Below, one piece after another: positions 6,194-46,967 of a stretch of DNA of 64,000 bases; position 1 is the first letter of the stretch; the number at the start of each line of letters is the position of its first letter. The notes under the pieces are model-generated. The model saw only the letters and a list, made by a program, of their open reading frames with translations. It had not been told where the DNA came from and did not search any database. Both the position numbers and the translations under genes were made by a program. Location of the stretch: contig JAPNXP010000004.1 of assembly GCA_028753945.1 (NCBI GenBank), forward strand, positions 5,456,001 through 5,520,000, read 5' to 3'. The DNA is from Hexactinellida sp. DTS-2022. Lineage: Eukaryota > Porifera > Hexactinellida.

Positions 6194-7426
6194 ATGGCAG
6201 TTCGATTCCCTGACCCGATACACCCCGTAGACCCTGTCGAGTTGGAAATACACCAACTGTTCGACCGAATAATTATGTGTGTCCAGCAGCGACGAGTGGC
6301 ACTCATAACCACATACCGCGACACACGCGACCAAATAGCCGCTAGGCCCATAGAGCGCGCGCGAAAAGAACAAGAACTAATCGCACTGAAAACCGAAACC
6401 GAGCGTCTCCTCCAAATGAACGAATTGAGAGAGACCCAGGAGCGAATCCTAGCGGAACTAGAACAAGCGCTAGCAGAGGTGAGGGTACCCCAGCCCGAGA
6501 CACGCGTGGTGTTCCGAGGCACCTGTGGACACCTGGAGCAGGTGATCGCAGGTGTGGGAGAGGTAGTCGAGGAGGAGGTGCCCGTTGTACCCCGATACGA
6601 AGAAATGAGACCGATTGTAACTGTCGGGAAGAAAGGACAAGCTCCCGGAGAGCTCTGTAATCCTTGGGGTGTCGCTATCGATGAGAACACAAATCTAATT
6701 TATGTCGCTGAATCAGATTCCTGTAGAGTCTCAATCTTCTCGGAGACCGGCGAATTCCTAAACACTTTCACAAACCAAGCCATGAGACAGCCACACGGTA
6801 TAGCGATCCATCGAGACAACCTGTACGTGACGGACACATGGGTACACGCTGTGTTCCGATTCAAAATAGAGGCTGACATGCGTCTCGTCGCTAGCCTAGG
6901 GAGTTGGGGATCTGGTGTGGGACAGTTCGATTTCCCTCACGGACTCTCCGTCGCTACCAACGGAGATGTGTTCGTAGCGGATTGGTACAACAACAGAATC
7001 CAAGTCCTAGATGACTCCCTACACTTCCAAAGATCCATAACGCACCAAACAATGAAATCCCCGCGTGACGTTAAACTGACACCAGATGAGGTGTACGTGC
7101 TCTGTGATAACTCTCCCTGCATCCTCGTGTTCTCTCACGCAGGAGAGAAGATACGCTCCCTAATCACATTGGGTACAGGAATGCAAATAGGAAGAGCTCA
7201 CTTCTTCTGTTTGGACAGACAACAGAATTTGCTGATCAGTGATTATCAGAATAACGAAGTTAGAATATTCTCGAAAGAAGGGACACACCTCCACACTATA
7301 GGGGAACCAGGACATGAAGTAGGAATGCTTCATTACCCTCATGGAATAGTTCTAACTGAAAATCTAAAATTAATAATTGTGTCTTATAATAATAACTACG
7401 GACTACAATTATTTTCTTGTCAATAA
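6194..7426 (+). CDS. Coiled-coil/NHL six-blade propeller protein, copy A
   Basis: Intronless, 410 residues. Residues 1-100 are charged and heptad-like (RARKEQEL, QERILAELEQALAE), predicting a coiled coil. A short linker (about 101-138) follows. Six NHL blades then run from about residue 152 to the end, marked by P-x-G-[IV]-A-[IV] and V-x-D-x-x-N-x-R-[IV] motifs such as PHGIAIH, VADWYNNRIQVL and ISDYQNNEVRIF. The layout is that of the C-terminal part of TRIM2/TRIM71-type proteins, without RING or B-box. There is no signal peptide or membrane segment, so it is probably cytosolic. Copies B (33298) and C (45711) are close paralogues. Most differences are in equivalent blade loops: 155-158, 196-201, 215-216, 238-249, 264-267, 288-292, 305-306, 351-355, 379-383 and 398-403. 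The binding partner (RNA or protein) cannot be read from sequence. Confidence 0.9.
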   Translation: MAVRFPDPIHPVDPVELEIHQLFDRIIMCVQQRRVALITTYRDTRDQIAARPIERARKEQELIALKTETERLLQMNELRETQERILAELEQALAEVRVPQPETRVVFRGTCGHLEQVIAGVGEVVEEEVPVVPRYEEMRPIVTVGKKGQAPGELCNPWGVAIDENTNLIYVAESDSCRVSIFSETGEFLNTFTNQAMRQPHGIAIHRDNLYVTDTWVHAVFRFKIEADMRLVASLGSWGSGVGQFDFPHGLSVATNGDVFVADWYNNRIQVLDDSLHFQRSITHQTMKSPRDVKLTPDEVYVLCDNSPCILVFSHAGEKIRSLITLGTGMQIGRAHFFCLDRQQNLLISDYQNNEVRIFSKEGTHLHTIGEPGHEVGMLHYPHGIVLTENLKLIIVSYNNNYGLQLFSCQ

Positions 7427-7497
7427 TTTTTTTGTTATCAATACATATTTTTCATATTTTTCTCCTTAATTATACATCCACTAAATATTATTTACTA

Positions 7498-7651
7498 CAG
7501 TCAGGTTCTTATTATGAACATTCAAGGGACCAAAATTGTGTTGCAAATATAGAGACTTCATAATCAGAGAACTCAACTTAATTAATACAAACCCTATGTA
7601 AGTTGTTAAATTGGGACCATAGGGCTTGTTCATAATAAGCAGACCTGACTG
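7498..7651 (-). mobile_element. Family F MITE
   Basis: Begins CAGTCAGGTTCTTATTATGA and ends GCAGACCTGACTG with flanking TA. The internal GGTCCCAATTTAACAACTTAC block (first 20 bases diagnostic) is shared with 23483, 31962 and 57250. Confidence 0.85.
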
Positions 7652-7796
7652 TATTGGATTATTTGCAGTTTTTTGTTTCTGTTTACAGCTTATGAATAGA
7701 GTGTTTGTGTTTACAAATAATATCTGTAAGCTAATCACACAAATCAACCTATCTGGAAGATTAAACTTAACACCTCTAATCTGCCACTCGTGCCAC

Positions 7797-12106
<4,310 letters not shown>

Positions 12107-12308
12107 GAATGCAGATATATTCATATACATTCAGTAGTCATTAGTGCTGAAATTAGTATCAATTGTTAGTTCAAATCCATGGTATATTATTGCATTTCGG
12201 TTCAAATAGTCAAACACAGATCCATTAAATTATAATTCATTTATAATTGTAACTATAGTACTTTCAGTTCGTTGTTAATTAATTACTTTAGTTAGTTAGT
12301 TAGTTACT

Positions 12309-12493
12309 TTAGAACCTCGTTAGTAGGAACACGGTTAATACGAATCTCCGGATAAGACGAACAAACAGTTCCACAAAATCAGGTCCCTACAATGGCTATT
12401 CAATGGGTATTACTCCGGTTAATACGAACTCCGGATAAAGCGAACACATTTTACCGTTCGTTGGTGTTCGTATTAATTAACGAGGTTCTACTG
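12309..12493 (-). mobile_element. Family B MITE
   Basis: Full-length copy ending GAGGTTCTACTG, about 90 bp upstream of the next start codon. It may contribute to that gene's promoter region. Confidence 0.8.
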
Positions 12494-12582
12494 TACATTA
12501 GACTCTCGTTAGTAGGAACTTTATTTGCAAATGTTATTTCAACTTATTTGCATATTTTATTTATATTTATTTAGTTGTATAT

Positions 12583-14256
12583 ATGGCAGAATATCGGAAT
12601 AACGAAGTTTACAATTCATTTGAAAATGAATTACGCGAGGCATTTAGAACTGCAAGGGATCAGTTAAACCAAGAGGAGGTCCGAATAATTAATTTATACC
12701 GAAACATGCCTAAACGTGCTTACCATAGAACTTGTAGAAAAGATGCTATTATTGAACAGTTAACGGAAATATGTCAAGACATTAGTTATAAGCTAGTCAG
12801 CCCTAAATTGTGTTCTGTCAAAACAAATGCAATGGCATACTTTAATAGCGCGATTAAACAGTCCCTAGAAGACCCAGATATCCCTATCAAGGAAAGCGAA
12901 GTTAATTTAATCGTCAGTGATCAACTTATTGAATTTCGTGACGAATTACAAAAATCTCGTCAAGCAGTAGATAATACAATGTATTCGAGTTTTCTTAGTG
13001 AACAATCAAATTCGATTGTTCAGAAAATGAATGGGTTAAAGTCTAAGTTAGCAGATTCTATAAAAGGACGGTCCATAGGTGATTGCCCGGATCAATTGTT
13101 GATCACAGATCGTAATTATGCGAGCGAAATAAATCCGTTTATTACAGAAGCCAAACGAAGTAAAACAGAGTCAATTGCTACTGGTATAGGACAGACATTT
13201 CATAAACCGATTGAAGGCATTCATAGTGAATTGGAACCAAGATCTATAGTTCCAGAAACAAGATCTTTAGTTCCAGAAACAAGATCTTTACCGGAACTTA
13301 CAATGCCTGTTTTGGAATCAACACTTTCACACGAAAGTTGTTTACCTTTAGAACCTATAGAACCTCCTAAACCGAAAGTAATTCTCGAACCAATAATAGC
13401 AAAGGGGAAACCTCCCGACTACAAATCTAAAGGTAAACCAATTAAATCCGCTGGTAAGTTTGGGGTAAATGTGGGTGAATTTAAAATGCCGAAAGGAATA
13501 GCATTTGATTCTGATGATGATAGAATATTTATAGCGGAAAGTAGTACCGCAAGTAGCCGTATACAAATATACTCTATAAAAGAGAAAAGTTTTTCTGAGA
13601 TGAATCAAACTTATTTAAAAAAACCACATGGGATAGCTGTCTCTGATAATGCTAATTCTATATTTATAACTGACTTGGAATTGAATGAAGTTGTAGAGTT
13701 TACACTTGACATGTTTGAATATGTGGCACACAATGGTGGTTTGGGTGATCATGATGGCCAACTAAACACACCAAATGGTTTGTGTGTGGCTAAGAATTTA
13801 GATGTTTATGTAGCTGATAACAAAAACAGCCGTATTTCAGTTTTCAAAAAGGAACTTAAATTTAAGGAGCATATTGGTGTTGGCCCACTTTTTGAACCAA
13901 AAGATGTGAAATTAACGAAAGAAACAATTGTTGTTCTTGATACACACGATGTATGCCTACATTTTTTCAGTCGCAAAACCAATGAATTCATTCGTTCTTG
14001 TATCACAATGGGCAGAGGGAATGATGTTCAGCGACCAATGTTTTTCTTTATAGATGCATTCTTGAATATTTTGATAGGCGACCAATTTGGGCATTCTGTA
14101 CACATATTTAATCAAGAGGGACACAAAATACACACCATTGGGGGTATTGGTCATGGTGAGGGACAATTGTTTAGTCCAGCCGGATTGTTTGTTAATAAAA
14201 CCGGTGAAATTGTAGTTGTTTCGTGTAATAAGAATAATATTTTGCAATCTTTCTAG
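12583..14256 (+). CDS. Coiled-coil/NHL six-blade propeller protein, long form
   Basis: Intronless, 557 residues. Residues 1-200 are helical and charged without a recognised domain. About 217-237 is a short repeated linker (EPRSIVPETRSLVPETRSLP), and the following 240-285 is proline- and lysine-rich. Six NHL blades then run from about residue 288, with motifs MPKGIAFD, KKPHGIAV, VADNKNSRISVF and FSPAGLFV. It has the same architecture as copies A-C. It is far more diverged and AT-rich, so it is an older family member. No signal peptide or membrane segment. The start is the first ATG after stops in the upstream region. Confidence 0.88.
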   Translation: MAEYRNNEVYNSFENELREAFRTARDQLNQEEVRIINLYRNMPKRAYHRTCRKDAIIEQLTEICQDISYKLVSPKLCSVKTNAMAYFNSAIKQSLEDPDIPIKESEVNLIVSDQLIEFRDELQKSRQAVDNTMYSSFLSEQSNSIVQKMNGLKSKLADSIKGRSIGDCPDQLLITDRNYASEINPFITEAKRSKTESIATGIGQTFHKPIEGIHSELEPRSIVPETRSLVPETRSLPELTMPVLESTLSHESCLPLEPIEPPKPKVILEPIIAKGKPPDYKSKGKPIKSAGKFGVNVGEFKMPKGIAFDSDDDRIFIAESSTASSRIQIYSIKEKSFSEMNQTYLKKPHGIAVSDNANSIFITDLELNEVVEFTLDMFEYVAHNGGLGDHDGQLNTPNGLCVAKNLDVYVADNKNSRISVFKKELKFKEHIGVGPLFEPKDVKLTKETIVVLDTHDVCLHFFSRKTNEFIRSCITMGRGNDVQRPMFFFIDAFLNILIGDQFGHSVHIFNQEGHKIHTIGGIGHGEGQLFSPAGLFVNKTGEIVVVSCNKNNILQSF

Positions 14257-14953
14257 TTTGTAGTTTATTATTTGTTTGGTTTTAGACGAGACTCTATTTT
14301 GATTGGTAGTTTTTTAGCTGTGTATGTATATAAGGATTTTTTTTAGTTTACTGCGTGATTTTTTTCTTTTTATTCTTTTTATTATTGTATTATTTGTGAC
14401 CTTTCTTGATTTCAGTTTGTATCAACATTTTAACTTTTAAACCATAATACCGGTTAATAGCTATATAGTACCGGTTCTGTTTAAAGCCTTTAAAATACGT
14501 TTGACACCTTTTGAGAATATCTGTTAAGGGAATATATTAGACGGTTTAATATCTACTTAGGTTTAGGTTTAGGTATATTTAGCATTTATTTGCGTTTATT
14601 TATTTAATTTTGAACCACTTAGGGGCGATTATTCAAGTAAATACGGTGTTTTCTAAAACGGCTAATTTGTAATTATTAAATGATGGCCATTACTTATAAT
14701 AATGGGTTATTTGCATATTCTATAAATAGATTAAATTCGAATTATATTTATATTAACAATCCTACACGAAATTATTTAATAGAATTCGTATTATTAGTGA
14801 ATCCCTATAGTTACGGTATGCCACAGATGGAATTTGTAATTTGAGCCATAAAACACCTTCACACTATATATAAACTAATATGTACAAAGTAATTTAATAT
14901 GGAAACATAGTTCAAAGACATTTTATCATGGAAATTTAATATGGAACTAAAAT
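14257..14953. other. AT-rich spacer, likely 3' UTR and AC promoter
   Basis: No gene seen. TTTAGGTTTAGGTATATTTAG type motifs occur at about 14560. The stretch before 14954 has three short upstream ATGs that each meet a stop within a few codons. Confidence 0.5.
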
Positions 14954-16502: not shown

Positions 16503-16533
<31 letters not shown>

Positions 16534-17297
16534 CGACTATGTTGTTGTTGTTAGGAGCAGGAAGAACTAGCGGCACCAGACATGATACTTAAGCACGGCA
16601 GAATATCCGGCCTAACTTGGAAGTGTACCTTTAAAGACACAGAACTGGAAAGGTACTCGTTAATAGCAAATATCGTAACAACTAGCTAGCTAGCTAACTA
16701 TCTAACTAACTAACTAATTAACTAGCTATCTAACTAACTATCTAACTAACTAACTAATTAACTAGCTAACTAATTAACTAGCTAACTAATTAACTAACTA
16801 ACTAGCTAGGTAACTAACTATCTAACTAACTAACTAATTAACTAGCTAACTAATTAACTAGCTAACTAATTAACTAACTAACTAGCTAGGTAACTAACTA
16901 ACTAACTAACTAACTAGCTAGCTAACTAGCCAAACAGTAAACATACCGAATTCTTAACTAGAAGTACAGTAAAACCTTGTTAGTACAAACATGGGTAATT
17001 AATGCGAATTCCGGATAAGGAGTACACATTTTGACGGCCCCCTGGTGTCCGTACTAACCAGTCTCTACTGTATTACACTTTAGTTTAATATCAAATAATT
17101 TTATCATACTATGTAATACCATTTTATTGACCCGTCGCTTATTCGGGGATATACGGTATTATTGTATCTATTTTTAGATTATATCGGAAGTTCTTCTATT
17201 TGGATGCTCATTTCCATTTTCAGTTCCTGGGTATTGCAAATATTGTATGGGACGTGCTACAGATTATAACATACTTCGCATTGAATAAAGTTAGTGC

Positions 17298-17341
<44 letters not shown>

Positions 17342-20300: not shown

Positions 20301-23300
20301 TATTTCTACGACAAATACAATATGAGTGATAGGAACTTTGGTATAACGGATGCCACTGAAGAGAACTCTAATTTTAAAGTTCTTCACGTCGATCATATGG
20401 AAGCAGTTAGGTTAGCATAAGAATTCTTATATTATTTCCCAATTGTTTCCAAGTTATAGATAAAGTACAGTAGAACCTCGTTAGTAGGAACGTGACATAT
20501 TTAGCTAATAATATTATATGTATAGTAGAACAGTAGTACATTAGTACGTAGAGTAGAACCTCGTTAGTAGGAACACCAGGGGACCATCAAAATGAGTTCG
20601 CCTTATCCGGAATTCGTATTAACCGACATCATTTGTATTGAAAAGGCTTTGAAGGGGGCTGAAATAGTGTTCCTATTAATCGTGTTCCTACTAACTAGGT
20701 TCTACTGTATTTATCGTTTACGTTAAATATTATTTGTTTACGTTAACATAATGAATAATATTTTATCTATTCAATTTCCTCAAAAGATCATCTTTAATAC
20801 AGTAGCTATTATAACTGTTATAATAGAACTGAACTAATTACTCTATTTATACAGTCAACTCTCGTTATAACGAAGTGCTTGGGACCTGTAATTCCCTTCG
20901 TTATATTCGGATATTCGTTATAAGCGATAATAATTAATGCATTTAGAGTGCCCTGGGGGAAATCTCCATTTCGTTATAAGCGGTTATTTCGTTATATCCG
21001 ACTTAGTTATAACAGGAGTTCACTATAATAGGGCAAAATAACTGTCAGGCCTTAATACAGTGGCTAATACAGTGGCTAATATAACTGTTATAATAGAACT
21101 AATTACTCTATTTATACAGTCAACTCTCGTTATAACGAATTGCTTTAACTGTCAGGCCTTAATACAGTAGCTAATAGCACTGTTATAATAGGAACTGAAT
21201 AATTACCCTATTTATTTATTTAGTATTCTGTTCGCTGACGTGGTTGGATTCACAAAGCTGTCCTCTTCAATGGAACCGAGGGATTTAGTGCAACTCCTAA
21301 ATAGACTGTTTGGACAGTTTGATGAGTTAGCTAAGGTTAGTTATTAGGCAGCTTAATAGGTACGTTAGTATAGGGTAGTTTTAAGGCACTGGGGTTCAGG
21401 GTATAAATAGAAAAAAAAACACTTTCATTTTCAATTGAAATTCAATTAAATTTCACTTTCAATTGACAACTAAGAGATAACTTATAACTTATATAACTTT
21501 TCAAACTGTCAGTTTATTGTTTGTTTGTTTGTTTGTTTGTTTGTTTGTTTGTTTGTTTGTTTGTTTATTTGTTTATTTGTTTGTTTGTTGTTTGTTGTTC
21601 TTACTTCTCTATTGCATTATTATAAACGAGACAAATTTAATGTTTTGTTTTTATTCATCAAAATAATAAATGATTACAATAAATGCATCAAACAAACTGA
21701 CTGGTAAATACAAACAAACTAATAAATATAAACGAACTAGTAAATATAAACAACACTATCATCACAAACACAAAAAATATTATTATTATTATCAACAGCT
21801 ATTCCTTTTGGATTTCTCTCACAAACTATTTTGTGTATTAACTCTCCATAATTTGTAAATATTTGTATTGACTTACTGAGATAATCGCTAACAATAATTT
21901 TATTATTCAAATCAAAACTCAAATAAATAGGACCAGTTCCATTATCTAATTTTATAAAACTTCTAATTATGTCACCTGTTTTTGTGAATATATGTATGTT
22001 ATTAATCTCATTATTGTCTGCCACAAAAATGTTGTTATTGTTTATTTTCACATCACGGGGGGATTTGAGTTTACCATTTCCTATTTGTCTAACTAATTTC
22101 AATTCTGAATTTAAGACTGCTATTCTATTATTATGACAATCTGCCACTAACACCTCTCCATTTGTATCTACTGTTATGCCAAGAGGGAAAGCCAGATCTC
22201 TTATAGCAGTCTGACAAACAAATTTGTTGTTTGTTATTTCGAATTTGAATACATATCCCAGAAAAAATTCACTAACAAACACCCATTTGTCATAGAATGC
22301 TATGGAGTATGGTCGTAATAGTTGTCCCTTACCAAATTCCGCTATGAACTTACCAGCTGTTGAGAATATCTGAATTCTGCTATTATTTGTGTCAGCAATG
22401 TAGATACTCTCATTTCTGTAAAGAGCTAAACCACAAGGCAGGTCAAACTCTCTTTTCTTATTTCCTTTCTTCCCGAATTTTCTGACAGGATTAATCTTCT
22501 CTCTGTAAGGTTCTGTTACATCCTCAACAGTTCCAAATCCCCTCAGCTGTTCCAGGAGAGATTCCAAACCCTCAGTACTGAATCCAGGGACAGGGACTGG
22601 AGTTGGCTTTTCGAATTTCTTTTTCTCATTTTCCAAATTCTTGATTTGATCCTCTTTCAGTATGACAATAGGATTTTGCTGGATACTCGCCTCCATGAGT
22701 TGTGAAATTAACTTTTTGATATCTGACACTTGTTTGCTTCTAGTCTCTTCCTTGTTGAGATAGTCCAGCCTCATGTCATTCAGCTGGACTAGCAACTGGT
22801 CTCTCCTCTCAGTCGCTGTTCCAATTATTCTACCAAAGGTAGAACGGATCAGCTGTTCCACTTCAATGAATGTGTTAATTGGGAGCTCGCTTTGTGGGAA
22901 TCTTTCAGCCATTCGATTTATTGTTTGTTGTTTTGTTTTATGATTAATCTCAGTTCCTGTCTGTATTTATACCAGTTAATATGTGACATTATCAGAGGTG
23001 TCAAGTGGTGAAATAGAAACTACACTATTCACATTTCCCTATACTCTACCACAGATAATAATCATAAGGGAAGTGAGGTATTATCTGAATTTATCTCACA
23101 TGAATACTCACGTGTTAGCTCAGATGGCTTTCAACATACAACTCAGTTCCTATTATAACTAGCCACATTCCTTATAAGGATCTAATTGCTATCCTAATTC
23201 AGTATCAGTTTCATTCAGGGTTATACAGCCATTTGTAATTACGCTCCTAATCCTGGTCTGATCCAATTTCCTTACGCCTAAATCACAAATTAATGTTACG

Positions 23301-33297: not shown

Positions 33298-34530
33298 TTA
33301 TTGACAAGAAAATATTTGTAGTCCGTAGTTATCATTCCAAGACATAATTATTAATTTCATATTTTCAGTTAGAACTATTCCCTGAGGGCTAAGAAACATT
33401 CCTACTTCTTGTCCTGGTTCCCCTATAGTGTGGAGGTGTGTCCCTTCTTTAGAGAATATTCTAACTTTATGATTCCGATAATCACTGATCAGCAGATTCT
33501 GTTTTCTGTCCAAACAGAAGAAGTGAGCTATTCCTATCTGCATTCCTGTACCCAGTGTGATTAGGGAGCGTATCTTCTCTCCTGCGTGAGAGAACACGAG
33601 TATGCAGGGAGAGTCCCAACAGAGCACGTACACCTCATCTGGTGTCAGTTTAACGTCATGCGGTTGTTCCATTGTTTGGTGCGTTATGGATCTTTGGAAG
33701 TGTAGGGAGTCATCTAGGACTTGGATTCTGTTGTTGTCATAATCCGCTACGAACACATCTCCGTTGGTAGAGACGGTGAGTCCGAAAGGGAAATCGAACT
33801 GTCCCACATCAGATCCCTCACTCCCTAGGCTAGCGACGAGACGCATGTCAGCCTCTATTTTGAATCGGAACACAGCGTGTACTCCTGTGTCCGTCACGTA
33901 CAGGTTGTCTCGATGGATCGCTATACCGAATGGCGCTCCCATGTCTTGGTTTGTGAAAGTATTTAGGAATTCGCCTGTCTCCGAGAAGATTGAGACTCTA
34001 CAGGAATCCCCTTCTGCGACATAAATTAGATCTGTATTCCCATCGATAGCGACACCAGTAGGATTCCAGAGCTCTCCAGGAGCTAGTCCTCTCTTCCCGA
34101 CAGCTACAATCGGTCTCATTTGTTCATATCGGGGTACAACGGGCACCTCCTCCTCGACTACCTCTCCCACACCTGCGATCACCTGCTCCAGGTGTCCACA
34201 AGTGCCTCGGAACACCACGCGTGTCTCGGGCTGGGGTACCCTCACCTCTGCTAGCGCTTGTTCTAGTTCCGCTAGGATTCGCTCCTGGGTCTCTCTCAGT
34301 TCGTTCATTTGGAGACTTTGTTCGGTTTGCGCTTTACATACCATTAATTCTTGTTCTTTTCGCGCGCGCTCTAAGGGCCTAGCGGCTATTTGGTCGCGTG
34401 TGTCGCGGTATGTGGTTATGAGTGCCACTCGTCGCTGCTGGACACACATAATTATGCGGTCGAACAGTTGGTGTATTTCCAACTCGACAGGGTCTACGGG
34501 GTGTATCGGGTCAGGGAATCGAACTGCCAT
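33298..34530 (-). CDS. Coiled-coil/NHL six-blade propeller protein, copy B
   Basis: Intronless, 410 residues, ending SCQ like copies A and C. The N-terminal coiled coil is identical to copy A except near residues 53-71. The six blades keep the framework of copy A (IVAVGKRG, VADYDNNRIQVL, ISDYRNHKVRIF), but the loop residues differ. Examples are 155-158 WNPT against CNPW in A and WSHH in C, and 379-383 FLSPQ against LHYPH and LYQPE. No signal peptide or membrane segment. It is convergent with the adenylyl cyclase; the 240-bp gap between them shows no other feature. Copies B and C share more residues with each other than with A. Confidence 0.9.
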   Translation of the reverse strand: MAVRFPDPIHPVDPVELEIHQLFDRIIMCVQQRRVALITTYRDTRDQIAARPLERARKEQELMVCKAQTEQSLQMNELRETQERILAELEQALAEVRVPQPETRVVFRGTCGHLEQVIAGVGEVVEEEVPVVPRYEQMRPIVAVGKRGLAPGELWNPTGVAIDGNTDLIYVAEGDSCRVSIFSETGEFLNTFTNQDMGAPFGIAIHRDNLYVTDTGVHAVFRFKIEADMRLVASLGSEGSDVGQFDFPFGLTVSTNGDVFVADYDNNRIQVLDDSLHFQRSITHQTMEQPHDVKLTPDEVYVLCWDSPCILVFSHAGEKIRSLITLGTGMQIGIAHFFCLDRKQNLLISDYRNHKVRIFSKEGTHLHTIGEPGQEVGMFLSPQGIVLTENMKLIIMSWNDNYGLQIFSCQ

Positions 34531-34801
34531 TTTATTATTATTTGCTAGTTAGCTAGTTAGTGCTATGGAAAGGAAAGTAGTTTGTTAGTATAATGCTATA
34601 GAGAATGTGTCTCGTATCTTATAGCAGAGCTAGGTGGTGGAACTGAGTGGAATGTGGCATCTGTTTGTGTGCCGCCTCTTCTGATGCACATGGTGACTCC
34701 ATCCAGTCAGGAATGTAGTGAAAGGAAATACTTTCATTTGTGATTAATTAGTTATTGCAGAGACAGCTCTGCTAGGATACCAGATAGCTCAAATGGAATG
34801 T
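34531..34801 (-). promoter_or_regulatory. Conserved upstream module of NHL copy B
   Basis: Nearly identical to 5931-6193 over its whole length. Similarity stops about 12 bp before a family I transposon that separates it from the divergent UAP1 gene. Confidence 0.75.
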
Positions 34802-34813
34802 TTATTTCGTTAT

Positions 34814-35082: not shown

Positions 35083-35088
35083 ATTAGT

Positions 35089-38000: not shown

Positions 38001-39630
38001 ACATCATTCAATGAATTAGTCAACTAATATTTAAACTTTTTCCTAGATTTTTTTTATTTTTTTTATTTACAAAATTTCCTGGATTAAAATTTGCGTCCAA
38101 GTTTTGCCTTAAGTACCACTGTACAAAGTTTGTAACGCTGGTATAGTTATAAAGGTGTTTGTAAACAACAACAAATATATGTAGAATAACACCAGCACTC
38201 AACAATGGGATTAAAATGGAGAAATTCGTGTTTGACGTATTTCAGTTTTCGAAGAGTTTAGCTGTACTAGAGATTGTAAGAGAGGACGAATTTGCTCCGT
38301 TAAAGAATCCACCGGGCGTAGCCAAGGAATCTCCCTATACCAGTAGGGCTGCTGTATACGATCTGCACTATAGGTGAGAACAACAACAACAACAACAACA
38401 ACAACAATCATACCTAAATAACAACAACAACAAACAACAATACTATAATAATAACAAAACAAAGAAAAATATAACTTTAACAATATTTTTTTTTTAACCA
38501 AATAATAGTTTTATATTCAGTTGAACAAATTATGATCATCTAAACACTTATTTGTTTAACTACAGTGAACTCTCGTTATAACGAAATGGATATTTTCCCC
38601 CAGAGCACTAAATGCATTAATTATTATCCGCTTATAACGAATATCCGGATATAACGAAGGGATTTACAGGTCCCAAGCACTTCGTTATAACGAGAGTTGA
38701 TTGTAATAGGTAAACACATATTATTATTCTGTTCACCACATATATTATAACGGTTAAAGCGGTTTATCCACAATTAATATTCTAGGTTTATCCTTGCTGC
38801 GGGGGGAAATGTTGTTGACAAGAACGGAGGCCCTCTGCCTTTCATTCCCAGAAGGTTTGATGCTATAAATAGAACAAATATATCTATACAGGAACTAACT
38901 ACAGTAGAACCTCGTTAGTAGGAACACGGTTAATACGAACACTATTCAGTCCCCTCAAAGCCTTTTCAATACAAATGATATTGGTTAATACTTAATACGA
39001 ATTCCGGATAATACGAACACTATTCAGTCCCCTTCAAAGCCTTTTCAATACAAATGATATTGGTTAATACGAATTCCGGATAAGGAGTACACATTAAGAC
39101 GGTCCCCTGGTGTTCCTACTAACGAGGTTATACTGTATATTAATGTGTGACTAATTATGTGTGCTATTATAGGAGAGCTTCCGATACAGAGACAAGTAGT
39201 GGTGTACAGGTAGAAATATGTCCGTCTATTACATACTTTGGAGAGGTTAGTTGTTGTTGTTGTTTGTTGTTTGTCTATATGTTTGTTTATCTAGTTGTTT
39301 GTTTGTTGTTTGTTGTCTATTTGTTGTTTCTTATTTATTTGTTGTTTGTTATTATTATTGACTAGTTGATTATTTATTTATACTATGTTACTGTTTATTG
39401 AATATTTCTTTGGGTTATGTTTATGATTGTTGTTGTTTACTTGTTGTTAGGGGCTCGAGTTTCTGAAGGAAAAGAAGTTGGAGAATAATTTCTATCTTCA
39501 CAAGAAGGGCGATAACTTCCTTGTTACACAACCACTTAACAAAGTTATGCAAACTATAAAAAGAACAAATGCAACCGATAACGAACCATCTCCTGCTAAG
39601 CGAGATAAATTAGAAAACAACCATAATTAG
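35089..39630 (+). CDS. UAP1: UDP-N-acetylglucosamine pyrophosphorylase
   Basis: Cytosolic enzyme that makes UDP-GlcNAc from UTP and GlcNAc-1-phosphate, feeding N-glycans, GPI anchors and chitin-like polymers. Eight exons join in frame: 35089-35359, 35869-36073, 36386-36734, 37286-37581, 38185-38373, 38786-38854, 39173-39245 and 39451-39630. The product is about 543 residues (human about 522). The signature [18 protein letters not shown] is in exon 2. Then follow [57 protein letters not shown] and [13 protein letters not shown], as in animal UAP1. The exon 4/5 junction is the least certain: the chosen AG/GTATAA donor gives about ten extra residues compared with human. The start is the first ATG after the family I element. 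The C-terminus ([11 protein letters not shown]) is charged and not conserved. Confidence 0.93.
36219..36330. mobile_element. Short palindromic element with GGTCTACA arms
   Basis: TTTATAGACGGTCTACA, TTATAGACCGTCTAGA and related blocks form overlapping inverted repeats. Fragments recur near 150 and 44735. Confidence 0.5.
36798..36980 (-). mobile_element. Family D MITE
   Basis: CAGTATTCGGTTAATAGAGC start and AAGCGGAGTCGACTG end, in UAP1 intron 3. Confidence 0.8.
37000..37131 (+). mobile_element. Family J MITE, shortened
   Basis: ACTCTCGTTAATAGGAACAC start and GAGGTTCTACTG end. Confidence 0.7.
37155..37275. repeat. 37-bp tandem repeat before UAP1 exon 4
   Basis: Three units of TATTAACAGAGTCTACTGTA plus TATCAATACGAATTCC. 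It appears to be an amplified family J end. Confidence 0.85.
37640..37790 (+). mobile_element. hAT-1 relative, degraded
   Basis: Contains TAGGCGTATGGCGCGCTCCTGG and CGCGATCCTAAACGC-like remnants. Ends are uncertain. Confidence 0.4.
38563..38703 (+). mobile_element. Family C MITE
   Basis: CAGTGAACTCTCGTTATAAC start and GAGAGTTGATTG end, with TA flanks. Confidence 0.82.
38902..39134 (-). mobile_element. Family A MITE with internal duplication
   Basis: CAGTAGAACCTCGTTAGTAG start and GAGGTTATACTG end. The CACTATTCAGTCCCC to TTCCGGATAA block is present twice. Confidence 0.8.
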
Positions 39631-41038
39631 GAATATTAGAAATTATACTTGTTTGTTTGTTTGTTTGTTTGTGGTGTGTGTGTGTGTGTTTACTTATTTA
39701 TTTAGCTAATTGTTGTATATTGTGTTTGAATTCATACTTCATTTAAGTGCATTAAACATTGGTTAACATGTAAAAATTGTGTAAACACAAACAAGGAAAT
39801 GCTTCGAAATGTCAAGATGAATAAAAAGTTAAATAAATACTAATTATCTCAGTTTAAAAATCGATTACAACAAACAGATCCTAATATATAGGTTGTTATA
39901 ACTTAATTAATTATTCAACTAAAATATGGAGCTGAAACGATTATTAGAAATGTTCGAACGAATATTCGTTATTTTGGATTAAAATACAGTGGAAAATACT
40001 TTTAGTTAACGTTACAGTAGTTTAATAAAACTAGTTACAAAGTGTATTAGAAACAAAAGTAGCTACGTGTATTCAACTAGTTTAGGTAAGAATTAATATT
40101 TACGATTTTTCCAATCTACACAAAAGTCATGTTGTTGTCCAAAAGTAGTAAACAAATATACGGTATATTCGTTTCAGCCCTAATAAAAGCCAAAATACGA
40201 AAATTTGATGAAAAATATTTAATTTTTGTAACCCTTAATTATTTCTCTATAACAGTATAATATAAATTCCTTTAGGTTTAATTTCTTAGAAAGTTAGTGA
40301 TTAATTAATTCAAATAACTGCTTACCTTACACAATTTGATAAAATCAATTAATTGAGTCACTAAAGGGTGGAGACATGGGTGTGTTTCAAAAACAAATAT
40401 TTGAGATTACTCCTCCTATACACACAATGGTATTTATGTAAATACGCCCTTGTAACTTAAACTAATGTGTTATTTAATTATAACTGAATTTAAACTAAAG
40501 ATCTATCAATTAAAATATTCTTATATCTCTTTGAATCCTAATTAGACTCTGTTAATAGGAACACCAGGGGACCGTCTTAATATGTTCGTATTATCCGGAA
40601 TTCGTATTAACCGGAGTCACTTGCATGCATTTGTATAGGCTAGGGGAATTAACCTTGTACTCCTTAACCGATATTTCCCTTATCCGTGTTCCAGTAAAAC
40701 CTCCAAAAGTTAATACTTTCAAGATATGAACACTTTTTCTCGGTCCCAAATTTCCCCATTGCTTTAGACACACGTTATGATGAATCATGAAAAGTTAACA
40801 CCTCTCAATAGTGAACATTTCGGCTGGTCCCCAGGGTGTTCACTTTTACTGTACTAAAAAAAAAAAAAATAATAAACAATTTAGTTTAATGCATCGTACA
40901 TGTGTGCAATTCGCAGTGTAAGAATTGAATCGGAACTGATTAACTAAATTGAAACTAAATAAGAGTACAGAGTAGATTAGTGCATAATAGGTGTAAATCA
41001 AATTCCAAAGTGACAATCTGGTTGCTATGCTACGCAAC
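39631..41038. other. Spacer between UAP1 and the HMG gene
   Basis: No gene seen. A TTTG and GT microsatellite lies at 39648-39690. AT-rich sequence fills 39700-40540. A family J element follows (about 40549-40694) and a family K element (about 40692-40855, AAAACCTCCAAAAGTTAATA start, TTCACTTTTACTG end). Confidence 0.6.
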
Positions 41039-41623
41039 TCAATCTTCAGAACTGGAACTATCTGGTTCTAGTTCCAATTCATTCGATTTGGCGCCTTTTT
41101 TCTTTGAACTGGAACTGGAACTGGAACTAATATTTCTGAATAGTTCCATTTCCTTCTCGTATCTTTCTTTATCTTTTTGCGCGTCTAAAATAAATGGCGC
41201 CTTTTCCTCATCAGTTAGCAGCCGCCAATGCGCGCCTAATTTCTTGGAAAGTTCGGCAAGCGAAGTGCCGGGTTTTTCCGACCGGTATCGAGGTCTCTCT
41301 TCGTTACAAAAGTAGAAGAAACCGGGCAACGGTCTTTTCGGTTGGTTCGGGTCTTTGGTTGTTTTACGTTTTTTCGCTTTTGAACTTACAACGGGTTCAT
41401 ATGTCGCCATTTCAGCTCGAAATCTAGCCTTGTCATCGTCCGCATTCTTTGAATATTTCTCTTTCTCTTCGTTGGTAAGAGATTTCCATATACCGGAACA
41501 TTCCTTCGAAAAGCTTATAAAGCTTATACTCATGTTGTTCGCTTTGTAGTGAGACCGGCGGTCTTTTATGAAGAAATTATAGGGACCCAAAGCTCGCTTA
41601 GGTCGATCAGTTTCCTTCGGCAT
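41039..41623 (-). CDS. Two-HMG-box chromatin protein, HMGB-like
   Basis: Intronless, 194 residues. Box A spans about residues 6-74 (PKRALGPYNFFIKDRRSHYK, IWKSLTNEEKEKYSKNADDD). Box B spans about 92-162 (PKRPLPGFFYFCNEERPRYR, LGAHWRLLTDEEKAPF). The linker AKKRKTTKDPNQ is the basic joiner typical of HMGB proteins. The C-terminal tail is serine- and acid-rich (SSSSSSSSKKKGAKSN, then ELELEPDSSSSED) instead of the long pure acidic tail of vertebrate HMGB1. It should bind and bend DNA in the nucleus. Confidence 0.93.
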   Translation of the reverse strand: MPKETDRPKRALGPYNFFIKDRRSHYKANNMSISFISFSKECSGIWKSLTNEEKEKYSKNADDDKARFRAEMATYEPVVSSKAKKRKTTKDPNQPKRPLPGFFYFCNEERPRYRSEKPGTSLAELSKKLGAHWRLLTDEEKAPFILDAQKDKERYEKEMELFRNISSSSSSSSKKKGAKSNELELEPDSSSSED

Positions 41624-41696
41624 TTTATAAGATTGATACTATTTATAGACAAGCTATTTATAGTACAGTAGATTAGTTTGATAACTAAAGTGTAAT

Positions 41697-41965
41697 AAGT
41701 AGAACCTCGTTAGTAGGAACAGTTAAAATGTGTTCGCCTTATCCGGGATTCGTATTAACTGGTATTTGTATCAAGGATTTATCAAGGAGCGCGAGACGCT
41801 CCTTTTGGAGTATGATTTTTGTAAAATTTGAATTTAGAAGCGCGAAAATTTGGAATCCTCTTACAAATGGCTGTATAATACACTGATTTGCATTGAAAAG
41901 CTTTGAAGGGGACTGAAATAGTGATAATTATTATTAACCGTGTTCCTACTAACGAGGTTCTATTG
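41697..41965 (+). mobile_element. Family A MITE split by a hAT-1 insertion
   Basis: Left part 41697-41771 and right part 41886-41965 are the two halves of one family A element (AGAACCTCGTTAGTAGGAAC ... GAGGTTCTATTG). Confidence 0.82.
41772..41885 (+). mobile_element. hAT-1 MITE nested in family A
   Basis: CAAGGATTTATCAAGGAGCG start and TATAATACACTG end. Duplicated flank ATTTGTAT/ATTTGCAT (7 of 8). Internally deleted compared with 23216-23397. Confidence 0.85.
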
Positions 41966-42094
41966 TATTAGGAATATACATATATTTGTTATTATAGCAA
42001 ATTAATCATAGAAATGTCAGTATTTATTCTAATCAACAACTGCATTCAACTAATCTCAATTCTAACACCTAACTTGTAAACAACAACAAATATA

Positions 42095-44367
42095 TTAGGA
42101 GTCAACTTCTAACTCTCCATCCTTTATAGCATCAATTAAGTCCTTAGGAGCTCTCTTCTCCACACTGCAGCCTAACAACAACAACAACAATAACAACAAC
42201 AATAACAACAATAATAATAACAACAATAACAACAACAACAATAACAACAACAACAATAATAACAATAATAACAATAACAATAACAACAACAATGATAACA
42301 TATCCCTCAATAGTACAGTAGAACCTCGTTATTACGAACACCAACGGACGGTAAAAATGTGTTCGCTTTATCCGGAGTTCGTATTAACCGGAGTAATACC
42401 CATTGAATAGCCATTGTAGGGACCTGATTTTGTGGAACTGTTTATTCGTCTTATCCGGAAATCGTATTAACCGTGTTCCTACTAACGAGGTTAATTAACT
42501 TATAGTCAATCTATGAGATAATGTATATATTACTAAATTTAAATTATACCAAAATTATATTAAATCTATGCTATTTCAAGACTTACCAATAACAATACAA
42601 CAACAATAGACTGACTTACCAATAACAACAACAACAACAATAACAATAACAACAACAACAACAACAGCAACAACAACTGACTTACCAATGGACTGACAAG
42701 TCCCAAGCACTTGTAGAACTGTTCCTGAGAAATTCTTAGAAAATGATTTATATTCCAGTTTGTGAGCAATCTCCTTTACCTGGTCCAGGGTAAGATTCCC
42801 ATTGTGTCGAACTAGCAATGATACTATTTATAGAACAGTATACTATGTATAGGAACTAATTAAATACCCATAATATCCGGTATAAATGAATCACTTCAAG
42901 AAAAATAATAACTTTTAATAAATTTCAATAAATCGCCCCTTTAATGGTTACAGTCAACTCCCGTTATAACGAAGTGCTCGGGACCGTAGTTTCAGTTCGT
43001 TATAAGCGGAGTTTGTTATAAGCGGAGTAAAATCAATAGCTTTTAGGCTATATGGGATTATAAATGACTTCATTATAAGCAGAATTTTGTTATATCCATT
43101 TCGTTGTAAACGAAGTTTTAATATTGGTTATAACGGGAGTTGACTGTAGATTACTGTATTATTGCTATAAGATTATAATTATAATATCTATTATTGCTAT
43201 AACTATATATATAACCACTAACTATTCTTGACTTTCTTCCTGTCCCTTGGGGGTTCCTTTAGCGCCTGGATGAGCAGAGTGCTGGCACTCGGTTCCACCT
43301 CTGCCACGGCGGCTCTGTTCTGAATCGTGAGTTTAACCGTCACGCGGAGTCCCTTGTAGGCCTGCGTTATCTTAGATATGTCCTCTCCCACCTTCTTAGG
43401 GGCCTATGGGTATACATAGATATAGCTAGTCATTCTAGAACATTCTAGAACATTCTACTAGTCAGTTTAACCGTCAGAAATGTCCTCGTGCCTAATGGGT
43501 ATACATAGGTCTAACTATTCATCTGTTGGATACACTACAGTATATGCCGGATATAAGAACATTCTACTAGTAATTTGTTTTGATCCTGATGTACGTATAC
43601 AGTAAAACCTCCAAAATATGACACTTTTTCTCGGTCCCAAAATTTCCCCATTACTTGTATACCAGTGTATTATACAGGCATTTGTAAATGCGCTCCTAAT
43701 CAGTGTATTATACAGGCATTTGTAAATGCGCTCCTAATCAGTGTATTATACAGGCATTTGTAAATACGCTCCTAATCCTGGTCTGATCCAATTTCCATAC
43801 GCCTAAATCACAAATTAATGTTACGGTATAAGAGAGGATTCCAAATATTCGCGCACCTAAATTCAATTTTTCCTAAAATCATACTCCATATAATTCCCTT
43901 ATTGTGTGCCTACTAACGAAAATATACTAATTAACTAACCAATCCAAGAGGACCTATTTTAGGCGCCAAAGTTGCTGTATTTCCCGCTTCTCCACCAGTT
44001 GTCCTGACGTATACTAAAAATAGAACAAAGTTAGTTCCAAATAGAACAAAGTTAGTTCCAAATAGAACAGTTGTTAGTTCCAAATATAATTATCCTAAAA
44101 TACAGTCGACTCCGCTTAATAGAGTCACCTCGGGACCAGGTTACTTTGACCCGATTAAGCGGAGAAATCTATTAACCGAAAAATATTTGAGTCAAACTGT
44201 AATTCCGTCCTATAAATCCTGTGATATTTTTATCCGATTAATTAAGCGGATAAATCTATTAACCGGTGGCTCTATTAAGCGGAGTATACAGTAGTTCCAA
44301 ATATAATTATCTAAATATGTCTAAACTCACTAATCTTGACTTCATTTGGATCAATCTTAGGCGGCAT
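42095..44367 (-). CDS. RPL12: 60S ribosomal protein L12 (uL11)
   Basis: Component of the ribosomal stalk base that contacts the GTPase-associated rRNA. Five coding exons on the minus strand: 44331-44367, 43940-44013, 43223-43403, 42686-42811 and 42095-42171. They join in frame to 164 residues; human has 165. The N-terminus is [12 protein letters not shown]. Then follow [93 protein letters not shown] and [20 protein letters not shown]. All conserved L12 blocks are present in order. The introns hold transposons and CAA tracts. Confidence 0.95.
42174..42300. repeat. AAC/AATAAC trinucleotide tract
   Basis: Fills the last RPL12 intron up to the exon 5 acceptor. Poly-leucine frames here are artefacts. 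A second tract lies at 42625-42675. Confidence 0.95.
42315..42493 (+). mobile_element. Family B MITE
   Basis: CAGTAGAACCTCGTTATTAC start, CCGTGTTCCTACTAACGAGG near the end. Confidence 0.82.
42951..43145 (+). mobile_element. Family I MITE
   Basis: CAGTCAACTCCCGTTATAAC start and AACGGGAGTTGACTG end with TA flanks. Reference copy for the family. Confidence 0.85.
43663..43900 (-). mobile_element. hAT-1 element with triplicated end
   Basis: The terminal 38 bp (CAGTGTATTATACAGGCATT plus TGTAAATGCGCTCCTAAT) is present three times in tandem, followed by the usual interior. The other end is degraded. A family K fragment precedes it (about 43601-43660). Confidence 0.8.
44103..44291 (+). mobile_element. 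Family D MITE
   Basis: CAGTCGACTCCGCTTAATAG start and AAGCGGAGTATACAGTA end, in RPL12 intron 1. Confidence 0.82.
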
Positions 44368-44428
44368 CGAATTCCTATGTTTCTAATTAGTAACTAAGGA
44401 GAATAACTATTCATATAAATTTAATAAT

Positions 44429-44583
44429 CAGTGGTGTGCATAATAGCAAGTCACATTTTGAAAGAAATTTGCTTGTTAATAGGCGAACTTGCTATTAGAG
44501 GAACAGAATTAACATTAAATGCTCGCTTGGGGACTGAAAATAACTTGCTAATAAAGCAAATTGCTATTAGGCAAACACCACTG
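44429..44583 (+). mobile_element. Family G MITE
   Basis: CAGTGGTGTGCATAATAGCA start and GGCAAACACCACTG end. Close to full length, just upstream of RPL12. Confidence 0.85.
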
Positions 44584-44998
44584 TGGCCCAAATAATAGGT
44601 AAATCAAAATATTCAGATATAGAACAAAAAGTATTTATAGATTCGTTGTTCTATAAATTACCAATATAATATGCTTGTTCTATAATTAACTACTTATTAA
44701 TTAAGTATCTAATATAATATACCTGGTCTAGAAATAGACGGTCTACATATAAGATATTTCTATAATTAATTATATTGGATAATTAATTAAGCAATTATAA
44801 CAAGTATATTATTAATACACTTGTTCTATAAATAACTCAATAACTGATCTCATTAAACTCATTTATAATCCCCGCTCAAAATAAAATAATCTCTAATTCC
44901 CCGCCTAAATATATGACGCTGCTTTAATCCCCGCCTGAATTAATATAATACATTCAATCAAAGTATAATTGTAAATGGAACTATAACTGGAACTATAA
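44584..44998. other. AT-rich spacer
   Basis: No gene seen. A GGTCTACATATAAG palindrome fragment lies at about 44735-44755, and there are short ATTAATTA runs. Confidence 0.5.
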
Positions 44999-45484
44999 TC
45001 AAAACTCTTCATGAAACACATCGAATAATTCCTGTTGATTCGAACATAGTGTCAATACAGTATTCATAGCAATTAATAACTCATCAGCTGTTCCGAAATA
45101 ATATTTATGTTCACTATCAGGACCATTTACCCCTTGGAGTAAAACCCCCGTTGTACTTATAAAATAGACCCTAGGGTAGTATACACCATTCTTCCTATAA
45201 CGTGATAATCCTGGGTCTTCTTTCCTCTCGATTTTAACCATTGTGAATTCCTCACTTAGTTGTATAATCTGCTCAGAGTTTGAAATTTGTTTTTTGAACC
45301 TGCTACTTGCGAAACAACTGTTCCCATAGAACACAAGCATAATAGGCTTATGGTGTCTGTTTGGGACCTCAAATGAGGGGGAATAAGGTTGCCAGGTAAA
45401 TATAGTGTTAAATTTGTCTTCTGGGGGTGAGGTGTTAATTTGAGTAATTATGAGTGTTATCAGAAGTATAATGTAACGTGACAT
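44999..45484 (-). CDS. AGR/TXNDC12-like thioredoxin-fold secretory protein
   Basis: Intronless, 161 residues. Residues 1-18 form a signal peptide (MSRYIILLITLIITQINTSP). The thioredoxin fold follows: PIMLVFYGNSCFASSRFKKQ, EFTMVKIERKEDP, YYPRVYFISTTGVLL and YYFGTADELLIAM, matching the order of human TXNDC12 and AGR2. The active site reads C-F-A-S, that is CxxS as in AGR2/AGR3 rather than the CxxC of TXNDC12. It should favour mixed disulfides or a chaperone role over full oxidoreductase turnover. The C-terminal HEEF resembles a KDEL-type retrieval signal, suggesting residence in the ER. Confidence 0.8.
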   Translation of the reverse strand: MSRYIILLITLIITQINTSPPEDKFNTIFTWQPYSPSFEVPNRHHKPIMLVFYGNSCFASSRFKKQISNSEQIIQLSEEFTMVKIERKEDPGLSRYRKNGVYYPRVYFISTTGVLLQGVNGPDSEHKYYFGTADELLIAMNTVLTLCSNQQELFDVFHEEF

Positions 45485-45507
45485 TAATTAGCTAATAATA
45501 GATATAC

Positions 45508-45620
45508 AGTTGAAACGCGTTAGTAGGAACACCAGGGGACCGTCGAGATGTGTTCGCCTTATCCGGAATTCTATTAACCTATATTATTTGTATTGAAAAG
45601 GCTTTGGAGGAGACCATTCA
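45508..45620 (+). mobile_element. Family A MITE fragment
   Basis: CAGTTGAAACGCGTTAGTAG start with CACCAGGGGACCGTC. The right half is missing. Confidence 0.7.
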
Positions 45621-45710
45621 AAAGGAAGCATATATTTATTTAATAGTTGTCATTGTTTATTAAAAATATGTAAATAAACAGCTAATATTTAATATAACGA
45701 ATATAAACAA

Positions 45711-46967
45711 TTATTGACAAGAAAATATTTGTAGTTTGTAGTTATTATTCTCAGACATAATTATTAATTTCATATTTTCAGTTAGAATTATTCCTTCAGG
45801 CTGATAAAGCATTCCTACTTCATGTCCTGGTTCCCCTATAGTGTGGAGGTGTGTCCCTTCTTTAGAGAATATTCTAATTTGATGATTCTCCCAATCACTG
45901 ATGAGCAAATTCTGTTTTTTGTCCAAACAGAAGAAGTCAGCTATTCCTATCTGCATTCCTGTACCCCGTGTGATTAGGGAGCGTATCTTCTCTCCTGCGT
46001 GAGAGAACACGAGTATGCAGGGAGAGTCCCAACAGAGCACGTACACCTCATCTGGTGTCAGTTTAACGTTACGCGGGTATTCCATTGTTTGGTGCGTTAT
46101 GGATCTTTGGAAGTGTAGGGAGTCATCTAGGACTTGGATTCTGTGGTTATAATAATCCGCTACGAACACATCTCCGTTGGTAGAGACGGAGAGTCCATGA
46201 GGGCTATTGAACTGTCCCACACCAGATCCCTGACTCCCTAGGCTAGCGACGAGACGCATGTCAGCCTCTATTTTGAATCGGAACACAGCGTGTACTCCTC
46301 TGTCCGTCACGTACAGGTTGTCTCGATGGATCGCTATACCCCATGGGTGTCTCATGTCTTGGTTTGTGAAAGTATTTAGGAATTCGCCTGTCTCCGAGAA
46401 GATTGAGACTCTACATGAACCTGACCCTTCTGCGACATAAATTAGATTTGTGTTCTCATCGATAGCGACACCATGATGACTCCAGAGCTCTCCAAGAGCT
46501 TGTCCATCCTTCCCGACAGCTACAATCGGTCTCATTTCTTGATATCGGGGTACAACGGGCATTTCGATGGGTACAACGGGCACCTCCTCCTCGACTACCT
46601 CTCCCACACCTGCGATCACCTGCTCCAGGTGTCCACAGGTGCCTCGGAACACCACGCGTGTCTCGGGCTGGGGTACCCTCACCTCTGCTAGCGCTTGTTC
46701 TAGTTCCGCTAGGATTCGCTCCTGGGTCTCTCTCAGTTCGTTCATTTGGAGACTTTGTTCGGTTTGCGCTTTAAGTGTCATTAATTCTTGTTCTTTTCGC
46801 GCGCGGGCTATGGGCCTAGCGGCTATTTGGTCGCGTGTGTCGCGGTATGTGGTTATGAGTGCCACTCGTCGCTGCTGGACACACATAATTATGCGGTCGA
46901 ACAGTTGGTGTATTTCCAACTCGACAGGGTCTACGGGGTGTATCGGGTCAGGGAATCGAACTGCCAT
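45711..46967 (-). CDS. Coiled-coil/NHL six-blade propeller protein, copy C
   Basis: Intronless, 418 residues. Same layout as copies A and B. The N-terminal coiled coil is almost identical, and the linker is lengthened by an in-frame repeat (PVVPIEMPVVP where A and B have PVVP). The six blades share the framework but not the loops: SHHG at the first blade, HPWGIAIH, FNSPHG, VADYYNHRIQVL, EYPRNVKL, ISDWENHQIRIF and LYQPEG. One extra residue is present in the second variable loop (GSGSCR). No signal peptide or membrane segment. Confidence 0.9.
   Translation of the reverse strand: MAVRFPDPIHPVDPVELEIHQLFDRIIMCVQQRRVALITTYRDTRDQIAARPIARARKEQELMTLKAQTEQSLQMNELRETQERILAELEQALAEVRVPQPETRVVFRGTCGHLEQVIAGVGEVVEEEVPVVPIEMPVVPRYQEMRPIVAVGKDGQALGELWSHHGVAIDENTNLIYVAEGSGSCRVSIFSETGEFLNTFTNQDMRHPWGIAIHRDNLYVTDRGVHAVFRFKIEADMRLVASLGSQGSGVGQFNSPHGLSVSTNGDVFVADYYNHRIQVLDDSLHFQRSITHQTMEYPRNVKLTPDEVYVLCWDSPCILVFSHAGEKIRSLITRGTGMQIGIADFFCLDKKQNLLISDWENHQIRIFSKEGTHLHTIGEPGHEVGMLYQPEGIILTENMKLIIMSENNNYKLQIFSCQ

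Follow-up and report, generated by a model that had tools for sequence, protein, structure and literature searches.

A hypervariable propeller face in a multigene family of glass sponge NHL proteins, a probable germline repertoire for intracellular recognition

The NHL proteins TRIM2, TRIM3, TRIM71, Lin41, Brat, Thin and Mei-P26 are known as individual regulators. The nearest working parallel to the genes described here comes from the fungus Podospora anserina, in which the NWD/HNWD genes (het-d, het-e) encode NLRs with WD40 propeller sensors. Diversifying selection has been described there at two residues of the D-A loop and two of the B-C turn, on the interaction face, each selected pair flanking a conserved residue (PMC1805685, PMC12222747); the D-A and B-C loops of WD40 propellers are reported to share one face (PMC1805685). 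The NWD/HNWD repeats hardly differ in sequence, whether compared inside one gene or from gene to gene, and are swapped as whole units. Among animals, the nearest parallel in genome organization is finTRIM of teleost fish, described as a large, clustered TRIM-related family in which the N-terminus is near constant and the C-terminal recognition domain is positively selected (PMC2657112). Here we describe three closely similar genes, A, B and C, from the glass sponge Hexactinellida sp. DTS-2022, found in a stretch of 64,000 nucleotides (the window; contig JAPNXP010000004.1, positions 5,456,001 to 5,520,000). They belong to a large family of coiled-coil NHL proteins whose most variable residues lie on one face of the predicted propeller, where replacement changes far outnumber silent ones.

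The initial annotation of the window had placed NHL genes at three positions, and open reading frames (ORFs) were confirmed at each, B and C on the minus strand. Copy A (6194-7426, plus strand) is a single exon encoding 410 amino acids (aa), which comprise a coiled coil and a six-bladed NHL propeller (Pfam NHL, 7.2e-29). Copies B (33298-34530, minus strand; 410 aa) and C (45711-46967, minus strand; 418 aa) are of the same family, and each of the three is one uninterrupted ORF with a Pfam NHL match. Aligned with A and B, copy C has seven additional residues in the linker and one in the B-C loop of blade 1. Pfam matches at E 0.001 in A, B and C were to NHL and other propeller families only; at this threshold there was no match to RING or B-box in any of the three, and the architecture of NACHT with WD40 repeats was not found in them. 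No signal peptide is evident in A-type proteins when the sequence is inspected by eye. Our recount of residue differences in the propeller gave 41 (A-B), 45 (A-C) and 42 (B-C), within the 40-45 per pair first estimated, and 30, 33 and 32 of these (73-76%) fall in D-A or B-C loops or in the first two residues of strand A, which agrees with the three quarters that had been described as clustered. Codons differing at two or three bases, said to be many, number 14 (A-B), 18 (A-C) and 15 (B-C). Synonymous changes in the propeller were counted at 10 for A-B, close to the dozen reported earlier, and at 10 (A-C) and 4 (B-C) codons for the other pairs.

A, B and C belong to a far larger family than three genes. 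We searched one assembly of 18 contigs (112.4 Mb). Among named records, its RPF2 is closest to that of the glass sponge Oopsacas minuta; eight further relatives have 68-89% identity (one is also a transcriptome record), and the rest of the best 120 of 192 matches stay at 43% or below, so that this one gene points to a hexactinellid other than O. minuta. Copy A as query gave at least 107 matches (102 of 1215 candidates scored), an NHL repeat profile at least 150 (150 of 2268 candidates scored), and a second NHL family gene of the window (391 aa; 21737-22912, minus strand; 31% identical to A) at least 106 (106 of 1044 candidates scored); the three counts are lower bounds and overlap one another. 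Among the scored matches to the 391-aa gene, 11 (the gene itself included) cover the full length with at least 81% identity, and 10 of these cluster on contig C13. A B-box profile found only 20 matches in the genome, with all 43 candidates scored. Copies concentrate near contig ends: 29 of 33 A-like copies, and 16 of 27 from a sister group (g2), are no more than 500 kb away from one, compared with 16% of the genome. Four repeats of TTAGGG had no exact match in the assembly, a weak negative since the search skips simple repeats, and we do not call the copies subtelomeric. A dense array of ORFs of about 419 aa at approximately 13.65-13.80 Mb of contig C1 represents another NHL subfamily. Coding DNA was analysed for 31 A-like copies (g1) and for 21 copies of g2 (L035-L054 and L060). 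The g1 set is without L012, whose ORF begins at an internal methionine, L033 (81%) and L034 (78%), and retains L029 despite one TGA in its match; alignment columns with fewer than 28 of the 31 copies were excluded from codon counts.

We defined a site as hypervariable when its amino-acid entropy among the 31 copies was at least 1.5 bits, and 34 propeller codons are of this kind. Their positions were read from an AlphaFold2 model of A, built on an alignment of 78 rows, with strands and loops assigned by DSSP. The model has a mean predicted local distance difference test score (pLDDT) of 84.9, mostly above 90 in the propeller and below 50 at residues 96-130. It predicts a long N-terminal helix at residues 14-96 (6233-6481, plus strand), probably a TRIM-like coiled coil, and an NHL propeller at residues 139-410 (6608-7423, plus strand), whose nearest solved folds in the PDB are Thin, Lin41/TRIM71, TRIM2/3 and Brat. 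All 34 hypervariable sites fall in D-A loops (16), in B-C loops (12) or in strand A (6), and the six strand-A sites are the second residue of the strand, one per blade (158, 201, 249, 291, 336 and 383). Hypervariable sites occupy 28 of the 85 D-A and B-C loop positions and none of the 50 positions in A-B and C-D loops (0 of 26 and 0 of 24; Fisher p 3.7e-7), and the remaining strand positions have none. Mean entropy is 0.90 in D-A and 1.35 in B-C loops and 0.25 in A-B and 0.09 in C-D loops. In beta-propellers the D-A and B-C loops lie on one face. The hypervariable sites are confined to one propeller face as modelled, with all 34 on the D-A/B-C side, as had been claimed for the variable loops.

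The sites recur from blade to blade along the plus strand of A. The D-A loop and start of strand A at residues 155-158 (CNPW; 6656-6667) carry hypervariable residues flanking a proline, and similar hypervariable pairs flank a proline at residues 199-201 in blade 2 (QPH; 6788-6796) and 289-291 in blade 4 (SPR; 7058-7066). Blade 3 is hypervariable at residues 246-249 (DFPH; 6929-6940) and in its B-C loop at 264-265 (WY; 6983-6988), and the B-C loop of blade 4 at 305-306 (DN; 7106-7111). Blade 5 has a hypervariable pair within residues 334-336 (RAH; 7193-7201) and hypervariable residues 351, 352 and 354 in its B-C loop (351-354, YQNN; 7244-7255). Blade 6 is hypervariable at 380-383 (HYPH; 7331-7342), and a B-C loop at residues 398-403 (7385-7402) is hypervariable at 398, 400 and 403. 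Residue 398 alone is represented by 14 amino acids and 16 codons among the 31 copies. Residues enriched at the face relative to the scaffold include R, Y, N, H, W and Q; tryptophan makes up 6.8% of residues at hypervariable sites and 0.0% in the scaffold. Two g1 copies have a mean identity of 0.24 at hypervariable sites and 0.98 in the scaffold, and random draws from the column frequencies, self-matches included, give 0.267, close to the observed value.

The rates of change at the face point to diversifying selection, as the initial annotation had suggested. To avoid circularity, 33 sites were taken from a different group, made up of 36 database proteins; none of these proteins is more than 0.43 identical, at variable sites, to a member of the 31-copy set (one of the 36, P0013, has a best genome match of 84%). 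At these 33 sites the number of nonsynonymous substitutions per site (dN) among the 31 copies is 0.72, against a synonymous value (dS) of 0.10 for the propeller gene-wide, a ratio of 7.1 (6.5-7.9 by bootstrap over copies); dN in the scaffold is 0.038. The low dS is in keeping with the low synonymous divergence that had been expected. An internal clock is available in codons ending in C or T (NNY), where a swap of these bases at the third position is always silent. In g1 such silent transitions are found at 16 of 558 hypervariable (2.9%) and 85 of 3156 scaffold (2.7%) codons, whereas third-base transversions, mostly replacements, are found at 81 of 558 and 25 of 3156. Codons ending in A or G behave alike, with transitions, mostly silent, at 10 of 464 hypervariable and 47 of 3002 scaffold codons and transversions at 70 of 464 and 42 of 3002. 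Because silent changes are spared at variable codons, a mutator blind to the reading frame is disfavoured. In families of this kind, the third-base control could be a simple means of telling selection and hypermutation apart.

Relatives vary at the same positions. Database proteins of 400-425 aa, which are 111 of the best 120 among 890 relatives and presumably come from other glass sponges, were compared with the genome copies; P0093 (336 aa), from a relative's contig that is probably syntenic with this region, falls outside this length range and is therefore absent from the comparison with that contig given below. One group of 29 copies and 8 database proteins (35 variable sites) and another of 36 database proteins (33 sites) have 32 variable sites in common, where 4.2 are expected. 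Within the genome, g1 (31 sites) and g2 (38 sites) have 27 in common, where 4.7 are expected, and 9 of the 11 extra sites of g2 map to D-A or B-C loops when the DSSP assignment of the A model is applied. The family of the 391-aa gene, judged from protein sequences alone, was aligned as 118 database relatives (of the best 120 of 304) together with the gene itself. At a cut-off of 2.0 bits all 24 variable propeller sites are on the same face (10 in D-A loops, 10 in B-C loops and 4 in the first two residues of strand A), and two further variable sites are in the N-terminal part. By these alignments, a hypervariable face occurs in two or more NHL families of these organisms.

The scaffold of the A-type genes shows a history of exchange. 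Among 114 biallelic sites the squared correlation (r2) is 0.24 under 10 bases, 0.07 at 30-100 bases and 0.03-0.05 at greater distances. Conflicts by the four-gamete test are frequent, and they are fewer between neighbouring sites than after shuffling (a level as low was reached in 10 of 500 shuffles). Of 21 pairs of variable sites separated by 1-3 codons, only one (305/306) is associated, so that neighbouring variable sites apparently change faster than conversion can link them. Recombination or gene conversion, the latter raised earlier as one possible process, is supported for the scaffold, where linkage decays within about 30 bases; conversion tracts across the variable sites are not in excess in this genome. 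GC at third positions is 0.485 in g1 and 0.26-0.36 in five other ORFs of the window, a rise expected from biased gene conversion, which it does not prove. Most pairs of copies have in common 100-300 upstream bases, which include a TATA-like motif; over 150 bases the pairs differ by 8% on average. In A this block is at 5871-6193 (plus strand; TATA-like GCTATAAGATAC by eye), its 5' limit being approximate and dependent on the copy compared, and in B (copy L006) the same block is at 34531-34802 (minus strand; 5' limit approximate). Similarity between copies is lost within about 20 bases 3' of the stop codon, and 3' flanks are mostly unrelated. This is the picture expected of old duplicates that keep gene and promoter alike but lose similarity in their flanks. 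Concerted evolution of the scaffold is supported by its low synonymous divergence, by the decay of linkage and by 3' flanks that are mostly unrelated. A conserved upstream part with a diverged 3' side (in A from 7424 onward) is the opposite of a retrocopy pattern. A mobile element with fixed ends was considered and rejected, as upstream similarity fades at copy-specific points and no common 5' end was seen.

A segment of the coiled coil, residues 63-73 of A (6380-6412, plus strand), falls into three interchangeable classes named from residues 71-72, which are QS in 12, RL in 10 and AR in 9 of the 31 copies. The classes recur in g2 and in the database relatives, which suggests an old, shuffled module, and they may set the choice of dimer partner.

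Copies whose flanks can be aligned already differ over most of the face. L008 and L011 are 90.2% identical over 399 bases of upstream flank and have different residues at 21 of the 34 sites, alongside 12 synonymous codons; L016 and L024 are 92.4% identical over 357 bases and differ at 24 of 34 sites, with 8 synonymous codons. Across the 13 listed pairs with alignable flanks, 21-29 of the 34 sites differ. The contig of a relative whose RPF2 is 89% identical appears also to carry NHL relatives and is probably the syntenic region. Four copies on it have a mean face identity of 0.23 (maximum 0.38) and a scaffold identity of 0.94 to those of this genome. No trace of orthology seems detectable at the variable face in this comparison of sequences.

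We propose that A, B and C are part of a germline repertoire of diversified intracellular recognition propellers under diversifying selection, convergent with fungal NWD/HNWD, and we put the probability of this explanation at roughly 70%. The recognition repertoire under diversifying selection on one face that the initial annotation had read from the three genes is supported; from it we infer self/non-self or pathogen sensing by A-type proteins. Purifying selection and frequent short-tract gene conversion would keep the fold and the promoter near constant, while strong and sustained diversifying selection on ordinary mutation would push apart about 34 residues of the D-A/B-C face. Each copy would present a different binding face to changing non-self ligands, which may be pathogen products first and allogeneic products second. 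The A-type proteins are predicted to be cytosolic. Their long helix may form a TRIM-type antiparallel dimer that holds two identical faces apart and gives avidity; the coiled coil of A resembles, we assume, that of TRIM proteins. A ligand and a downstream signalling route are likewise putative parts of the proposal.

Several observations weigh against this explanation or limit it. Plain Nei-Gojobori counting gives a synonymous proportion (pS) of 0.190 at hypervariable codons and 0.069 in the scaffold, and in g2 silent third-base transitions are found at 20 of 620 variable (3.2%) and 23 of 1805 scaffold (1.3%) codons. Given these two excesses, a modest local rise in mutation rate, of two- to three-fold, or greater age is possible; such a rise is far smaller than the replacement excess. 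Over the whole propeller the nonsynonymous proportion (pN) exceeds pS in just 288 of 465 pairs, because most codons are constrained. Two sites variable only in g2 (348 and 350) are in strand B of blade 5 and not in a loop. Runs of six or more shared variable sites are not in excess in this genome (3 pairs, against 2.5 in shuffled data), and conversion is thus deduced from linkage decay and not seen as blocks. Tree-based selection tests were left aside because recombination biases them. A further difficulty is that the NHL faces of Brat, Lin41 and Mei-P26 bind RNA, so that a regulatory role is possible.

This last point leads to the rival explanations that concern the ligand. The face could read RNA, having been diversified against transposon or viral RNA or for the regulation of many mRNAs. 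The closest folds of A (Thin, Lin41/TRIM71, TRIM2/3 and Brat) speak for it, and RNA is reported to sit on the upper or top propeller surface of NHL domains (PMC5908797, PMC9070667). The net charge over the 34 sites, counting only these positions in the 31 copies, averages +1.0 (standard deviation 2.3, range -4 to 5), whereas RNA-binding NHL domains have been described with a strongly positive patch. A near-neutral face is better suited to ligands that are proteins or mixed than to RNA binding in general, and we regard the RNA explanation as improbable. Allorecognition, in which the propellers would probe the cytoplasm once tissues have fused, as the Podospora NWD/HNWD proteins do after hyphal fusion, seems to us somewhat better placed, though still unlikely; it is a sub-case of the recognition repertoire, and the odds of the two overlap. 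The loop topology is the same as that described for the Podospora WD40 sensors, and hexactinellid tissue is reported to be syncytial (PMC10280926). About 100 or more genes nevertheless suit many ligands better than one allotype, and the word allorecognition is absent from the main text of the Oopsacas genome paper.

The remaining rivals concern how the variation arises. A targeted mutator, retroelement- or deaminase-like, could randomize the loop codons: the first two codon positions are scrambled and the third is almost unchanged, superficially like adenine-directed AAY diversification, and of the 21 pairs of variable sites separated by 1-3 codons, 20 lack association. However, variation at position 1 affects every consensus base (A, C, G and T), and at position 2 it affects A, C and G, T being the consensus there in none of the variable codons; third-base transversions, mostly replacements, are common while silent transitions stay at background, a pattern that tracks the reading frame and not the base. 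Targeted hypermutation is disfavoured by this control within codons and by the lack of base preference, and the suggestion of targeted mutation in the initial annotation is left unsupported; we give such a mutator only a slight chance. The adenine specificity of a diversity-generating retroelement target was not found, although no search for a template repeat was made. Old variation merely reshuffled by gene conversion, with no continuing selection, would agree with the recombination of scaffold sites over short distances, with the database relatives P0011 and P0022, which have 23 consecutive variable sites of 35 in common, and with contig C13, where copies are slightly more alike at the face (0.279) than copies on different contigs (0.239). 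Against it, adjacent variable codons are unlinked in all but one of 21 pairs although r2 in the scaffold is 0.24 under 10 bases, and the third-base clocks within variable g1 codons are no older than those of the scaffold, which makes this explanation very improbable, if a little less so than the mutator. Least credible is that the loops are unconstrained and drifting. Loops are generally more variable than strands in most proteins, but here two of the loop types, A-B and C-D, change little (mean entropy 0.25 and 0.09), and a dN 7.1 times dS at the face is incompatible with drift.

The window contains further genes near A, B and C. A third NHL gene (557 aa; 12583-14256, plus strand), recognized from its ORF and Pfam match, has a long N-terminal part that is unassigned. 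An ORF of 203 aa (49856-50467, minus strand) has a hydrophobic start and, by eye, a possible signal peptide, and a protein of 455 aa (55796-57163, minus strand) appears leucine-rich-repeat-like by eye; neither has a Pfam match.

If the proposed repertoire is real, animals gain a large variable receptor family, in a lineage with fused tissue and little-known intracellular immunity, and a fold known for RNA binding and regulation, the NHL propeller, can also be a diversified recognition scaffold. Given the syncytial tissue, a class of cytoplasmic sensors would be an attractive arrangement. A broader and more tentative suggestion, to which we give rather less than even odds, is that hundreds of coiled-coil NHL propellers in several families are the main intracellular immune repertoire of glass sponges, an NHL-based receptor class that our searches did not find in animals, convergent with the fungal sensors of fused cytoplasm. 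No description of a variable NHL family was found in the titles and abstract openings of the open-licence literature searched, which does not show that it is absent from print, and the genome papers on Oopsacas and Aphrocallistes do not mention NHL in their main text.

Compared with the described systems, the A family has the NHL propeller of the TRIM-NHL proteins (TRIM2/3/71, Lin41, Brat, Thin and Mei-P26), and A, B and C are without the RING and B-box of TRIM-NHL E3 ligases, the predicted helix of A starting at residue 14. Unlike the named regulators, it is a hypervariable multigene family. FinTRIM proteins carry B30.2 with RING and B-box retained, whereas A, B and C carry NHL and have no Pfam match to RING or B-box. 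The likeness to NWD/HNWD is closest: both are multigene beta-propeller families in which the scaffold is kept alike through concerted evolution, and the A family has hypervariability confined to the face (except for two g2 strand sites) and positive selection there. The differences are that the A family is NHL and not WD40, has a coiled coil only, without NACHT, and comes from an animal and not a fungus. Identity from blade to blade within A is 0.24 on average and at most 0.32, so that its repeats are not near-identical in the manner of the NWD/HNWD repeats. The likeness is convergent, and if our explanation holds, animals and fungi independently picked the same two propeller loops.

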